Shown one piece after another: positions 1-38,513 of a stretch of 64,000 nt of DNA (position 1 is its first letter; each line of letters opens with the position of its first letter). A program made the position numbers and the translations under genes. The DNA is from Actinomycetota bacterium (lineage in GTDB: Bacteria; Actinomycetota; Acidimicrobiia; Acidimicrobiales; Ilumatobacteraceae): contig VGAK01000007.1 of assembly GCA_016870775.1 (NCBI GenBank), positions 1-64,000 on the forward strand, in the 5' to 3' direction. Below the pieces are notes generated by a model that worked only from the letters and a program-made list of their open reading frames with translations, was not told the origin of the DNA and did no database searches.

Positions 1-1
1 C

Positions 2-376
2 CAAGCCATTGCCCGGGACGCGGGACTCCCGGTGGTGCGTCTCCACGCCACCCGGCACACGTCCGCGACCCTCCTGTTCGACGCGGGAGTGCCCGTCCAC
101 GTCGTCTCGAGACGCCTCGGGCACACATCGGTAGCCACGACCGCCGACGTGTACGTGGCGCGGATGCCATCGGCGGACCGGGCCGCGGCCGACACGTGGG
201 CCACCATCCTCGCGAGGTCCGGTGAAGGACGCCGGAAGGACGCCGGAAGGACGCCGGAAGGCCCGAACGACCCGAACATAGGCGGACTACCCGAACACGG
301 AACCCTTGTGGGACAAGGAATCGGGACGACACGAAATCCCCCGATGGAGGCGACGCCGAGAATCGAACTCGGATAA
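2..376 (+). CDS. Tyrosine recombinase/integrase, C-terminal part (5' cut by window edge)
   Basis: The frame is open from base 2, so the N-terminus lies outside the window. The visible part is the catalytic core end of a phage-type integrase: a box II HxxR (His-Ala-Thr-Arg), the LGH histidine in RLGHTS, and the nucleophile Tyr in DVYVARM. The family performs site-specific recombination at att sites. After residue ~75 the protein becomes a low-complexity Arg/Gly/Pro tail encoded partly by an 11-bp tandem repeat. The last codons run into the tRNA-Cys gene on the other strand and the TAA stop (374-376) lies inside the tRNA T-arm. This is the arrangement expected of an element that integrates into the 3' end of a tRNA gene; the rest of the element would lie to the left. 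It could be a degenerate remnant, but the visible catalytic residues are intact. Confidence 0.82.
   Translation, partial: QAIARDAGLPVVRLHATRHTSATLLFDAGVPVHVVSRRLGHTSVATTADVYVARMPSADRAAADTWATILARSGEGRRKDAGRTPEGPNDPNIGGLPEHGTLVGQGIGTTRNPPMEATPRIELG
226..258 (+). repeat. 11-bp tandem repeat, three copies, inside the integrase tail
   Basis: Three perfect consecutive copies of AGGACGCCGGA. Because 11 is not a multiple of 3, each copy is read in a different frame. This makes the Arg/Lys/Gly/Pro tail of the recombinase non-conserved low-complexity sequence and suggests recent slippage at the element boundary. Confidence 0.85.
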
Positions 377-419
377 ACGGCTTTGCAGGCCGCTGCGTAA
401 ACCATTCCGCCACGTCGCC
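345..419 (-). tRNA. tRNA-Cys (GCA)
   Basis: The reverse strand folds as a cloverleaf. The acceptor stem GGCGACG (419-413) pairs with CGTCGCC (355-349). The anticodon loop CTGCAAA gives anticodon GCA, the T-loop is TTCGATT, the discriminator is U (348), and CCA is encoded (347-345). U73 is a known identity element for cysteine tRNAs. The 3' half is overlapped by the end of the recombinase gene on the + strand, so the gene is the probable attachment site of the neighbouring element. A TAGCAT hexamer on the minus strand (450-455) is a possible -10 box about 30 nt upstream. Confidence 0.95.
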
Positions 420-471: not shown

Positions 472-1872
472 TCAGCCCCTGCGGACTGCGTGGAAGATGG
501 TGCGGGTCCCGCCGGCAAGCAGCATCTTGCTCTTCACGTCGAAACGCCCCGTGAGCAGACGCTCGAACTCATCGAGGGTGAAGTCCGAGTGGATCCCCTC
601 GCGCTTGTTCTTCAGCAACTTCTTCACCATCGGATCATCGGCGTGTGGCATCTCGATCACCAACTCGGGTGTCGCATCAGCGAGCATGTCGATCTGGGCC
701 GCCACAGGGACGTTGAACGTGATCGCCAGGTGATGGATCACCGCGAGATACAGCACGATGTCGGGGCGACCGCGCTCGAAGATGCCGGGCCGCTCCCTGC
801 CGCGCCACCCGATCCCGCCACCGGCATCGGACATGTCGACGTACAACGGCAGGATCTTGTCGTTCTTCTCCGACTTGAGTGCCCCGTAGAGGCGGTCGAT
901 CACCAGGGGGTCGGCGTCCATCGCCACGACGGCATCGGCGTGCGCGGCCGCGATCCGCGAGAACACGCCGTCGTTGCAACCGATGTCCCACACCTGGGCG
1001 CGCGGCGACGAGGCCACTGCATCGCGGACGAAGCGCTGCTTCTCATCGAGGCTCGACTCGAGGTAGTGGCCGCGCTCCGAGTACTCCGACCATGTCGAGA
1101 CCGTGTCGCCGAGCGAGAGCCCCTCGACGATCTTGGTCAACTTCTTCAGGGTCGCATCGAGCACCTGCGGGTTCATGCCCGCCTTGGCGACCTCGCGCTT
1201 GACGTCGGCGTTCGAGTCCGCGAAGCGCCGCTGCGCGGCGGCGTGCAACACCACGTGCGTGAGCCGACCCTTGCGCGGGTGGCGCAGGCTCCCGGGGAGC
1301 AGCTTTGCCATCGTCTCGGGAGAGATGCCGTTCACCGATCCACGCAGGAACGGCTGGTAGCCGACACCGAGATGGGCCTGCAGCATGAGTGGGTAGAGGA
1401 ACATCTCGCAGAATTGCTTGTAGCCGTACCAGGGATCGCCCTTGCGGCGCACTTCGAAGGACCCGGCGTCGATGAACTGGGCGCGCGATCCGATGAATTG
1501 CACGTTGTAGGGGGTCGCATCCTTCATGCCCACACCTTCGGCGAGCATCTCGCGCGTCAGTTTGAGTTGCAGGAGTGCCGCATCCTTCAGCATCGAGAAC
1601 GTCCACTCGTAGGGATACGACACGAACGGGAGTCTCGGGTGTGTCATCGCGAGCGTCCACGGCACCGAGAGCCCCACCTGGGTCGGGTCGACCATCGTCG
1701 AGGCGATCAGATCACCCGAGTCGAGAGCTCGCCGGAGGGCGCCGGTCCTCCAGACCGCGTCGATGTCCTTGGCCCCCTCGGCCGTGAACGCGCGCACGAC
1801 AGCATCGGGACCGACGAAGACGCGACTCAGTGGGTCACGGAACGACCCGGAGTCCGGGCGGATCTCCGGCAT
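472..1872 (-). CDS. SAM-dependent methyltransferase, NoeA-like two-part protein
   Basis: 466 aa. A class I methyltransferase motif I, VWDIGCNDGVFS, lies near residue 295. It is followed by an acidic position in VAMDAD and a DIVLYLAVIHHL motif near 370, so the C-terminal half binds S-adenosylmethionine. The N-terminal ~260 residues form a separate conserved region with the motifs KDATPYNVQF and FIDAGSF, which I associate with NoeA-type host-specificity methyltransferases; the substrate is unknown. The start lies 3 bp after the stop of a small membrane protein gene, so the two form an operon read away from the Cys/Met PLP enzyme. No signal peptide is visible and it is probably cytosolic. A glycan or small-molecule substrate is only a guess. 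Confidence 0.8.
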   Translation of the reverse strand: MPEIRPDSGSFRDPLSRVFVGPDAVVRAFTAEGAKDIDAVWRTGALRRALDSGDLIASTMVDPTQVGLSVPWTLAMTHPRLPFVSYPYEWTFSMLKDAALLQLKLTREMLAEGVGMKDATPYNVQFIGSRAQFIDAGSFEVRRKGDPWYGYKQFCEMFLYPLMLQAHLGVGYQPFLRGSVNGISPETMAKLLPGSLRHPRKGRLTHVVLHAAAQRRFADSNADVKREVAKAGMNPQVLDATLKKLTKIVEGLSLGDTVSTWSEYSERGHYLESSLDEKQRFVRDAVASSPRAQVWDIGCNDGVFSRIAAAHADAVVAMDADPLVIDRLYGALKSEKNDKILPLYVDMSDAGGGIGWRGRERPGIFERGRPDIVLYLAVIHHLAITFNVPVAAQIDMLADATPELVIEMPHADDPMVKKLLKNKREGIHSDFTLDEFERLLTGRFDVKSKMLLAGGTRTIFHAVRRG

Positions 1873-2155: not shown

Positions 2156-3307
2156 GTGCCCCAGAAGCCCGACACCTCGGCAGTGACCGCTGGGCGCGAC
2201 GACTCCCGCTCACTCGCGCCGGCCCTCTGGCCGAGCACCGTCTGGGAAACGGCCAACATGGACGATGCCACCGCGCGCGCCACGGGGATGCGGTCCGAGA
2301 CGTTCTATTCGCGGTATGCGAACCCGACCGTGACACAGTTCGAACGGGCCATCGCCACCCTCGAACAGGCCGAGTCGGCACTCGCCTTCTCCTCGGGGAT
2401 GGGTGCGATCTCCTCGGTCGTTCTCGCGCTGTGCTCCAAGGGCTCCCACGTCGTGGCGCAGAACAACTTGTACGGAGCCACGTTGTCGTTCCTGCAGGGA
2501 CCGTGCGCCCGATTCGGCATCGAGACCACGTTCGTCGACCCCTCGGTGCCGGGCGCATTCGAAGCCGCGGTGATTCCGGGACGCACTGCACTCGTTGTCG
2601 CCGAGACTCCGTCGAACCCGCGCCTCGGCATCACCGATCTCGCCGAACTCGGACGCATCAAGGGCCCGTTCTCAGTGGTCGACTCGACACTTGCGACCCC
2701 ACTCGGGCAACGTCCCCTCGATTTCGGTGTCGACCTGGTCCTGCACTCGGCCACGAAGGGCCTCGGCGGGCACAACGATGCATTGCTCGGTGTGGTCGCC
2801 GGTGAACGCGACTTGATCGATGCGGTGTGGGGATATGCCGTGATGCACGGCGCGATCGCCTCTCCCCACGATGCGTTGAACGGATTGCGCGGGATCAAGA
2901 CGCTCGCGGTGCGCCTGAATCATCAGAACGTCTCGACTCTGCGCATCGCGCGTCGTCTCGAGTCACACGCCGCGGTCGAGCGCGTGTGGCACCCGTTCCT
3001 CGACTCCCACCCGCAGACCGGTCTCGCGCGCGGTCAGATGCGCCTCGGCGGAACCATGTTGTCGGTCGAGTTGAAGGGTGGCATCGACGCCTGCCGAAAG
3101 TTCCTCTCGGCACTGTCGCTCGCACGTGTCGCAACTTCTTTCGGTGGGCCCGAGACCTTGGTGTGTCACCCAGCCACGAGCACGCACGTCGGACTCTCGG
3201 TCGAAGCCTTGGCGGCGATGGGGGTCACCGACTCGCTGGTGCGGTTCTCTGTCGGTCTGGAGGATCCCGAGGATCTCTGCGCCGAGATCGAGGTCGCGCT
3301 CTCCTGA
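2156..3307 (+). CDS. Cys/Met-metabolism PLP enzyme (cystathionine beta-lyase/gamma-synthase family)
   Basis: 383 aa, GTG start chosen from the -10 hexamer 6 nt upstream. It is a trans-sulfuration family enzyme. The PLP lysine lies in LHSATKGLGGHND near residue 199, and SRYANPTVTQFE and the SSGMGAISSV phosphate-binding region are in the usual order. The final subgroup motif (lyase, synthase or sulfhydrylase) cannot be settled by eye. The GGHND form after the lysine occurs in several cystathionine lyases and synthases. With metX at 41-42 kb it fits methionine/cysteine metabolism, but it is not in an operon with it. The stop codon is the first base group of a four-copy 24-bp repeat shared with the convergent neighbour. 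Confidence 0.85.
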   Translation: MPQKPDTSAVTAGRDDSRSLAPALWPSTVWETANMDDATARATGMRSETFYSRYANPTVTQFERAIATLEQAESALAFSSGMGAISSVVLALCSKGSHVVAQNNLYGATLSFLQGPCARFGIETTFVDPSVPGAFEAAVIPGRTALVVAETPSNPRLGITDLAELGRIKGPFSVVDSTLATPLGQRPLDFGVDLVLHSATKGLGGHNDALLGVVAGERDLIDAVWGYAVMHGAIASPHDALNGLRGIKTLAVRLNHQNVSTLRIARRLESHAAVERVWHPFLDSHPQTGLARGQMRLGGTMLSVELKGGIDACRKFLSALSLARVATSFGGPETLVCHPATSTHVGLSVEALAAMGVTDSLVRFSVGLEDPEDLCAEIEVALS

Positions 3308-3398
3308 GACGCGTCAGACTGCCTTCCCTGAGACGCGTCAGACTGCCTTCCCTGAGACGCGTCAGACTGCCTCCCCTGAGACGCGTCAGACGGCCCGC
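3303..3398. repeat. 24-bp tandem repeat, four copies, bridging two convergent stop codons
   Basis: Units start at 3303, 3327, 3351 and 3375; the first three are almost identical and the last diverges at its end. Each unit contains CTGA-GACGCG-TCAG, a 4-bp inverted repeat around an MluI-type core, with the 8-bp palindrome GACGCGTC inside it. The TGA of unit 1 is the stop of the + strand PLP enzyme. The TCA of unit 4 (3386-3388) is the stop of the minus-strand gene. The array could act as a bidirectional transcription barrier, but no T-tract is present. Confidence 0.9.
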
Positions 3399-36735: not shown

Positions 36736-38513
36736 GTCGGCACCGCCGCACCGGGCCTCGCGGTCTCGACCATGACCGAGCCCGCGACATCGTGTGCGGT
36801 CGCCTGCGATTCGACGATCTCGCGGTAGGTGGCACACCCCGCGAGCAACTCGTCGTGCGTGCCGAGGCCCACGGTGAGGCCATCCTCGAGCACGAGGATC
36901 CGGTCGGCCCCACGGATCGTGGAGATGCGCTGTGCCACCACGACCGTGATCGCATCGGCCAGCCACGGAGCGAGCGCGGCCCGCAGACGCGCATCGGTGG
37001 CGAGATCGAGCGCCGAGAACGAGTCGTCGAAGAGGTAGATCTCGGGTTTGTGGATCAGGGCTCGCGCGATCGAGAGCCTCTGGCGTTGGCCACCAGAGAC
37101 GTTCGCGCCGCCCTGCACGATCGTGGCCTCGAGTCCCCCGTCCATCGCGCGCACGAAGTCCTCGGCCTGGGCGACGCGCAGCGCCGCCCACAGCTCGTCG
37201 TCGGTGGCATCGGGCTTGCCGAACCGCAGATTCGATGCGACCGTGCCCGCGAACAGGTAGGGCTTCTGGGGCACCAGCCCGATGCGCGACCACAATTGCG
37301 ACGGGTCGAGGTCGCGGACGTCGACGCCATTGATCGAGACGGCGCCCTCGGTGACGTCGAAGAGCCGCGCGACCAGGTTGCAGACGGTCGTCTTGCCCGA
37401 CCCGGTGCTCCCGACGATCGCGAGCGTCTCACCAGCCGAGACCGAGACCGTGAGGTCCCGGAGCACCGGCTCCTCGGCACCGGGGTACGAGAACCCCACG
37501 CCCCGGAACTCGAGTGCGGCGCGACCCGCGGCCGGACTCACGGGATGCGAAGGCGGTTCCACCGAGGGCGAGGCATCCAGCACCTCCATGATGCGCTCGG
37601 CACTGACGGAGGCGCGCGGCAGGAGAGCACCGATGTAGGTGGCGAGCATGACCGACATGAGGATCTGGGTGAGATAGGTGAGGTAGGCCACGAGCGAACC
37701 CACCTGCATGTCACCCGACACGATGCGGTTCGCGCCGAACCAGACCACCGCCACGCTCGAGACATTCACGAGCAGGGTCACCGTCGGGAACATGAGGGCC
37801 ATCAGACGCCCGCCCCGGAGGGCGGTGTCGGTGAGCAGCCGATTGCCCTCGTCGAAGCGCGCCTTCTCCTCGGGTTCCCGGACGAAGGCCCGGACCACGC
37901 GAATTCCGGTGAGCTGCTCGCGGAGAACCCCGTTGACGCGGTCGATCCGCTCCTGCATCGCGCGGAACGCGGGGACCATCCGCACGATGATCGACCCGAG
38001 ACACACCAGCAGCACGGGCACCGCCACGAGGAAGATCCACGAGAGTCCGAGGTCGAGGTGGGCCGCGAGCACGATCCCCCCGACCGCCGTGAACGGTGCG
38101 CCGACCAGCAGGGTGCACGCCATCAGCACCAGCATCTGGACCTGCTGCACGTCGTTCGTGATCCGGGTGATGAGCGAGGGTGCCCCGAAGGTCCCGACAT
38201 CGCTGGCCGAGAACTGGTTCACTCGACGGAACAGGTTGGCCCGCGCGTCCCGTCCAAAGCCCATGGCGGCCCGTGAGCCGAAGTAGACCCCCCCGATCGA
38301 GAACGCGACCTGAACGAGCGAGACCACCAGCATCGTCGCGCCCATCCGCACGATGTAGCCCTGGTCGCCGAGGCGCACGCCCTTGTCGATGATGTCGGCG
38401 TTCAGGGTGGGCAGGGCAAGCCCGGCAAAGGATTGGATCCCCTGCAGCAGCACCACCAGCCAGAGGACCCTCTTGTAGGGGGCGAGGGTGTGTGTCAGAA
38501 GGCGCTTCAACAT
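36732..38513 (-). CDS. ABC exporter half-transporter, degenerate-site subunit
   Basis: 593 aa from the ATG at 38513 with GGAAGG 4 nt upstream. Six membrane helices (~15-310), then the nucleotide-binding domain: Walker A GSTGSGKTT near 380, signature VSGGQRQRL, Walker B IYLFDDSFSALD. The catalytic Glu after Walker B is Asp (DD instead of DE), so its own Walker B site is degenerate while its normal LSGGQ-like signature completes the active site of the partner. This asymmetric arrangement is typical of heterodimeric exporters such as TM287/288 or BmrC/BmrD. It is the first gene of a two-gene operon. Confidence 0.9.
   Translation of the reverse strand: MLKRLLTHTLAPYKRVLWLVVLLQGIQSFAGLALPTLNADIIDKGVRLGDQGYIVRMGATMLVVSLVQVAFSIGGVYFGSRAAMGFGRDARANLFRRVNQFSASDVGTFGAPSLITRITNDVQQVQMLVLMACTLLVGAPFTAVGGIVLAAHLDLGLSWIFLVAVPVLLVCLGSIIVRMVPAFRAMQERIDRVNGVLREQLTGIRVVRAFVREPEEKARFDEGNRLLTDTALRGGRLMALMFPTVTLLVNVSSVAVVWFGANRIVSGDMQVGSLVAYLTYLTQILMSVMLATYIGALLPRASVSAERIMEVLDASPSVEPPSHPVSPAAGRAALEFRGVGFSYPGAEEPVLRDLTVSVSAGETLAIVGSTGSGKTTVCNLVARLFDVTEGAVSINGVDVRDLDPSQLWSRIGLVPQKPYLFAGTVASNLRFGKPDATDDELWAALRVAQAEDFVRAMDGGLEATIVQGGANVSGGQRQRLSIARALIHKPEIYLFDDSFSALDLATDARLRAALAPWLADAITVVVAQRISTIRGADRILVLEDGLTVGLGTHDELLAGCATYREIVESQATAHDVAGSVMVETARPGAAVPT

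Follow-up and report, generated by a model that had tools for sequence, protein, structure and literature searches.

A mobile element has, with a probability of about 0.93, been integrated by a tyrosine integrase at the 3′ part of a tRNA-Cys gene, with its right attachment site (attR) in the window and its left attachment site (attL) on contig C11 of the same assembly. The window is the whole stretch of DNA that was analyzed, namely the first 64,000 bases of contig C7 (86,252 bases) from a draft assembly (G000; 1.74 Mb, 44 contigs, 80% complete). Both likely ends of a mobile element were thereby placed in an uncultured actinobacterial lineage, and an insertion split over two contigs by the assembly would explain the point at which the window starts. 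The features on which this reading draws are given below (positions are those of the window unless C11 is named).

1–339, plus strand: likely right-hand terminus of the inserted element, reaching from the contig start, by which it is truncated, to attR
2–376, plus strand: tyrosine integrase, C-terminal 124 residues (open frame from the contig edge, profile matches, alignment with relatives)
224–261, plus strand: tandem 11-bp unit (GAAGGACGCCG), three and a half copies, candidate arm-type integrase sites 79–116 bp from the core
340–368, no strand: probable attR core, 29 bp, identical to attL at G000:C11:55840–55868
345–419, minus strand: tRNA-Cys (GCA), intact, 75 nt (ARAGORN)
472–1872, minus strand: methyltransferase-like gene (Pfam match below cut-off), conserved chromosomal neighbor on the undisturbed (5′) side of tRNA-Cys
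C11:55869–57756: likely other element end, 1,888 bp right of attL, up to the contig end
C11:55931–55949: tandem 11-bp unit, two copies, starting 63 bp beyond the other core

Integrase fragment

The integrase frame (2–376) is already open where the window starts and closes with a TAA stop codon at 374–376, inside the tRNA-Cys gene. Because base 1 of the window is also base 1 of contig C7, the missing N-terminus was attributed to an assembly break. The fragment matched the Pfam Phage_integrase profile (2.1e-8; domain match over fragment residues 3–53) and a PHROG integrase family (4.6e-19). Residues R18, H41, and Y51, which we take to be catalytic-type positions, were identical in 29 of 29 aligned relatives. 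The frame was assigned as the C-terminal part of a tyrosine integrase on the basis of these comparisons. The gene is transcribed toward attR, and its frame crosses the candidate arm sites and the core and runs into the tRNA.

Within the order, relatives of the integrase were found in 98 of 397 genomes, its own counted (E up to 1e-10). A comparison to phage records matched 974 of them, all at < 60% identity and with less than 80% of the query covered in every case; judged by such similarity, these matches indicate only that the integrase is phage-type. Among 29 relatives that were fetched (the order-wide search gave many more matches), the integrase stop was located in a tRNA in none. A tRNA was present in 19 of these 29 loci, 14 times upstream of the integrase match and 5 times downstream, the nearest being 14 bp from the stop. 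In one locus (L101, G114:C191, 1–381), 14 bp separate the end of a related integrase from the 3′ end of a tRNA-Met. The contig of that locus likewise starts within the integrase, which may reflect the same kind of insertion cut by a contig start there too.

tRNA-Cys and the attachment cores

A genome search with positions 1–450 of the window returned one further match, in which 340–368 was identical to C11:55840–55868 over 29 of 29 bp in the same orientation (E = 5.7e-8). This second core copy stands near a contig end, and no tRNA was found at C11:55840–55868. The 29-bp core covers the T-loop, the 3′ T-stem strand, the 3′ acceptor strand, and the CCA of tRNA-Cys plus 5 bp beyond (tRNA parts were assigned by hand from the ARAGORN anticodon position). 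Beyond the core, the two sites have just 9 of 40 bases in common per side, a level that would be expected of unrelated DNA. The 24-nt tRNA part of the core occurs in two copies in G000 and in one copy each in 6 other genomes, and this exact sequence is absent from 54 (61 genomes searched, G000 counted). Given the E value of the match and the presence of the 24-nt part twice in G000 and only once in each of those 6 others, a chance origin of the second core copy was excluded. All 75 nt of the tRNA-Cys gene are identical to the tRNA-Cys of four relatives (G003, G012, G015, and G024).

The initial annotation had foreseen a second copy of the tRNA 3′ end, and the partial, 29-bp identical copy on C11 bears this out within the same genome. 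It had confined the att core to 345–376; the identical segment overlaps this interval, with the limits shifted to 340–368 so as to include 5 bp outside the tRNA. Its placement of the integrase stop codon within tRNA-Cys agrees with the ARAGORN call at 345–419, and its placement in the T-arm has to be amended, with 374–376 lying opposite tRNA nt 44–46 in the variable loop adjoining the T-arm (tRNA read by hand). The core ends at the T-loop, and the stop codon is therefore outside the common core. Finally, the element was correctly sought to the left, but not wholly outside the window, in which its last 339 bp appear to lie.

The two probable ends of the element

The segment to the right of attL on C11 encodes a pentapeptide-repeat protein, a 239-residue HTH_17 protein, and the C-terminal part of a second tyrosine recombinase that runs off the contig. 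The HTH_17 domain scored above the Pfam cut-off. Among PHROG families, the protein matched "excisionase and transcriptional regulator" (2e-10) better than "terminase small subunit" (1.2e-6). It was detected in 1 of 397 genomes of the order, its own, and a search of phage records with it returned nothing. The second recombinase fragment (G000:C11:57411–57755) fell below the Pfam cut-off. In the order, 14 of 397 genomes, its own counted, have a match to it, and no tRNA was found in the 15 of its loci that were scanned. Viral contigs held no relative of the integrase, the HTH protein, or the second recombinase, and searching them with the 24-nt tRNA part and the 29-nt arm repeat gave nothing.

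The tandem 11-bp units are present at both ends, and these repeats would tie the C11 end and the C7 end to one element. The 18-mer GACGCCGGAAGGACGCCG has 3 occurrences in the 1.74-Mb assembly, all at the two element ends (reversed control, 0), and the 8-bp kernel GGACGCCG of the unit is by itself common, with 14 occurrences in the window. The longest word common to the two 339-bp ends was 20, compared to a maximum of 17 among 2,000 random pairs of 339-bp segments taken from the window and C11. Arm-type sites of lambda-type integrases have this appearance, with repeats of similar size and spacing at either end, about 60 to 120 bp away from the core. By analogy, the 11-bp repeats are candidate arm sites to which the integrase may bind.

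The assembly contains four matches to PF00589, namely the window's, that of the C11 end, and two complete ones on contigs C31 and C1, and the N-terminal half of the window integrase was not among them. This half was also absent from the 17 smallest contigs, two of which show a GC of 0.0 and are probably masked. The interior is not in the assembly, and the element is seen over 2.2 kb, from its two ends alone. The complete tyrosine recombinases on C31 and C1 were both considered as parts of the element and rejected; the one on C31 sits between NUDIX-like and CTP-synthase-like genes. We presume the C31 recombinase to be the housekeeping XerD and the C1 recombinase to be XerC, by our own reading without an HMM, with the neighboring genes considered for C31.

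Chromosomal flanks and the unoccupied site

The methyltransferase-like gene and tRNA-Cys occur together in 17 of 29 non-own loci. Gene content beyond the tRNA-Cys 3′ end varied among the 10 loci listed, with an acyl-CoA synthetase in 5, a rhodanese-like protein in 3, and a membrane protein in 2 (G024 and G018); these gene names were read from sequence, without an HMM. Within the genus, the 3′ side of tRNA-Cys is thus variable in gene content and the methyltransferase-like gene on the 5′ side recurs. A homologue of the membrane protein is encoded at C11:52845–53681, roughly 2.2 kb left of attL, with identities of 65% over 215 residues (G024) and 76% over 37 residues only (G018, where the contig ends), and the next genes of G024 match C11 at 58, 73, and 85%. 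In G024, the membrane-protein DNA starts directly at the tRNA-Cys 3′ end, with no integrase there.

From this synteny, G024 would represent the pre-insertion state of the locus, except for one additional secreted-protein gene in G000 and an exchange of position between two surface-protein genes. The secreted-protein gene stands between attL and the membrane-protein gene in G000 only (its G024 homologue is on another contig), and the two surface-protein genes are in swapped order on C11 of G000 relative to G024. The evidence for the unoccupied site comes from G024 and, to a lesser degree, G018; 8 of the 10 listed relatives carry other genes beyond the tRNA.

Relatives of the integrase were found in none of 31 other genomes of the same genus (E up to 1e-6), and the 15 other genomes with an integrase match in that search all came from other families of the order. 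Beyond the tRNA in 40 oriented non-own loci, no match to the integrase, the HTH protein, or the second recombinase was obtained (E up to 1e-3); these 40 loci are not fully independent, as several genomes were present in two collections, and in 8 of the loci no more than 70 bp of sequence follows the tRNA.

The tRNA-Cys locus was compared in related genomes as the initial annotation had advised, and G024 was found to carry the DNA of the C11 flank at tRNA-Cys and no integrase. The proposal that the end of the integrase at tRNA-Cys is the right edge of an integrated element accordingly gained support from the second core copy and from the unoccupied sister site. Two outcomes had been named as contrary to that proposal. 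One was the lack of a repeat within ~200 kb; a repeat was found, though on another contig. The other was an unoccupied-site genome with the same integrase, of which the search of the 31 same-genus genomes yielded no case at its threshold.

In 4 of 17 relatives (L015, L019, L023, and L031), 70 bp or less lie between the 3′ end of tRNA-Cys and the contig end, and in one case the two coincide. Such contig ends may mean that the tRNA-Cys site is occupied differently among the cells of those populations. To the left of attL, G000:C11:43163–55747 (L003) holds a run of secreted/surface-like proteins, several of which resemble each other and proteins of G024 and G018 (about 30 to 85%); the last protein of the run had no Pfam match.

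Proposed integration and alternative explanations

In the proposed mechanism, the element would be a prophage or a conjugative or mobilisable element, and its tyrosine integrase would have recombined its attP with the 3′ part of the tRNA-Cys gene. The element would have carried its own copy of the tRNA 3′ end, which presumably now supplies the 3′ end of the gene at 345–419 and would have kept the tRNA intact at attR (340–368), and the displaced 29-bp fragment would mark attL (C11:55840–55868). The C11 end and the C7 start would then be the two ends of one element, with the HTH protein as its putative directionality factor. In keeping with a tDNA island, an intact tRNA gene was found at one end and a displaced 3′ fragment in the same orientation at the other, with the ends on separate contigs. 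A tyrosine integrase was found within the bounded segment, as a C-terminal fragment only, and an unoccupied site with the same flanks was found in G024, and in G018 over a short stretch, with synteny that was good but not perfect.

Two alternatives overlap with this explanation. The two ends could be what is left of an old insertion that has lost its middle, or had it rearranged, and no longer excises, and the cut integrase fragment and the lack of any interior found would fit such a degenerate island. However, the integrase frame is open up to the contig edge, the cut being a contig end, the two 29-bp cores do not differ, and none of the catalytic-type residues covered by the fragment is altered; we consider a degenerate island unlikely. 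Slightly less likely again are two different elements in tandem at tRNA-Cys, with the C11 end belonging to the outer one, the window integrase to the inner one, and a third core between them. Arrays at tDNAs are known from the Islander work (PMC4383910), the window integrase and the C11 end represent two different recombinase fragments, and the missing interior could hide a third core copy. Against this stand the 11-bp repeats shared by both ends, the restriction of the 18-mer to these places in the assembly, and the count of just two copies of the 24-nt core part.

A draft assembly of this fragmentation and completeness (44 contigs, 80%) also leaves room for there being no element at all, in which case a tRNA fragment arisen by duplication would have come to be associated with a recombinase fragment of separate origin by chance or by a binning error. 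The 29-bp identity, the matching orientation, the synteny of the left flank with the sister genome, and the common end repeats all argue against such a coincidence, which is highly improbable. Integration of a single element at tRNA-Cys is the explanation retained below.

Integrase C-terminus across the core

The att core lies inside the integrase frame. In the circle form (the two ends joined in silico, assuming one element), the frame crosses the core and ends ...PRIEPSADDDESPDSNG, and in the integrated form the integrase ends ...PRIELG; under the same assumption, the circle form carries 13 other residues instead of Leu-Gly. The swapped C-terminal part lies beyond the Pfam domain match (fragment residues 3–53). 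In the 15 of 29 aligned relatives that were viewed, most integrases end before about residue 92 of the fragment, one (L080) runs to the end, and a few have some residues past that point of residue 92. Third-position GC, for which no significance test was made, was 0.59 in codons 76–112 (n = 37) versus 0.85 in codons 1–75 (n = 75), and 0.75 in codons 113–124 over the core. Because most of the viewed relatives are shorter and because of this difference in third-position GC (0.59 versus 0.85), the tail resembles a translation of attachment-site DNA.

The integrase might alternatively be a switch coupled to integration, in which an acidic 13-residue tail (PSADDDESPDSNG) would be replaced by Leu-Gly from antisense tRNA-Cys, altering the stability or activity of the protein, with the arm-site DNA encoding the preceding stretch. 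An adaptive C-terminal switch was disfavored by the relatives mostly ending earlier and by the lower third-position GC of the tail. Since the changed part is beyond the Pfam domain, most of the viewed relatives are shorter, and the GC is unlike that of selected coding sequence, the C-terminal change was treated as a by-product, with only a small chance that a switch operates. If true, such a switch would be a much smaller version of the device of Myxococcus phage Mx8, in an uncultured actinobacterial lineage.

Comparison to known elements

The insertion is of an ordinary, well-understood kind, and both the general mechanism and a change of the C-terminus across att are already known. Islands described by Islander and TIGER (PMC4383910, PMC9580842) likewise have an intact tDNA at one end, a displaced 3′ fragment in the same orientation at the other, and a tyrosine integrase inside. 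From these descriptions no difference in kind is visible, the present element being known from its two ends alone. Island ends on separate scaffolds with missing middles are described for TIGER2 (PMC9580842), and the possibility of an integrase reaching across attP is taken into account in the Islander paper (PMC4383910).

According to the account of Mx8 (PMC4701971), very few elements have their att site inside the integrase gene. In Mx8 IntP, as here, the att core lies inside the integrase frame and integration changes the C-terminus (PMC4701971; a title on Mx8 is also among the references of PMC4383910). In that phage, integration is described as swapping 112 residues for 13, and the modified integrase as less active (PMC4701971), whereas here the exchange would be of 13 residues for 2 and would affect a tail outside the Pfam domain match. 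In pleolipovirus-like proviruses of haloarchaea (PMC7911831), attP is similarly reported to lie within a coding sequence that only the circular form has in one piece and that integration divides; there, however, this is a separate gene downstream of the integrase, and here it is the integrase frame itself. Actinobacterial integrative and conjugative elements (AICEs), as described in PMC3218068, share with the present element an actinobacterial host, a tyrosine integrase, a tRNA 3′ end as target, and a putative directionality factor, but of the present element only the two ends are assembled, with no transfer or replication gene in view there.

Other features of the window

Elsewhere in the window, ARAGORN reported a tRNA with an incomplete anticodon at 37399–37484. 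A 24-bp repeat unit is present in 3.9 copies (97%) at 3303–3395, where the frame 2156–3307 ends.
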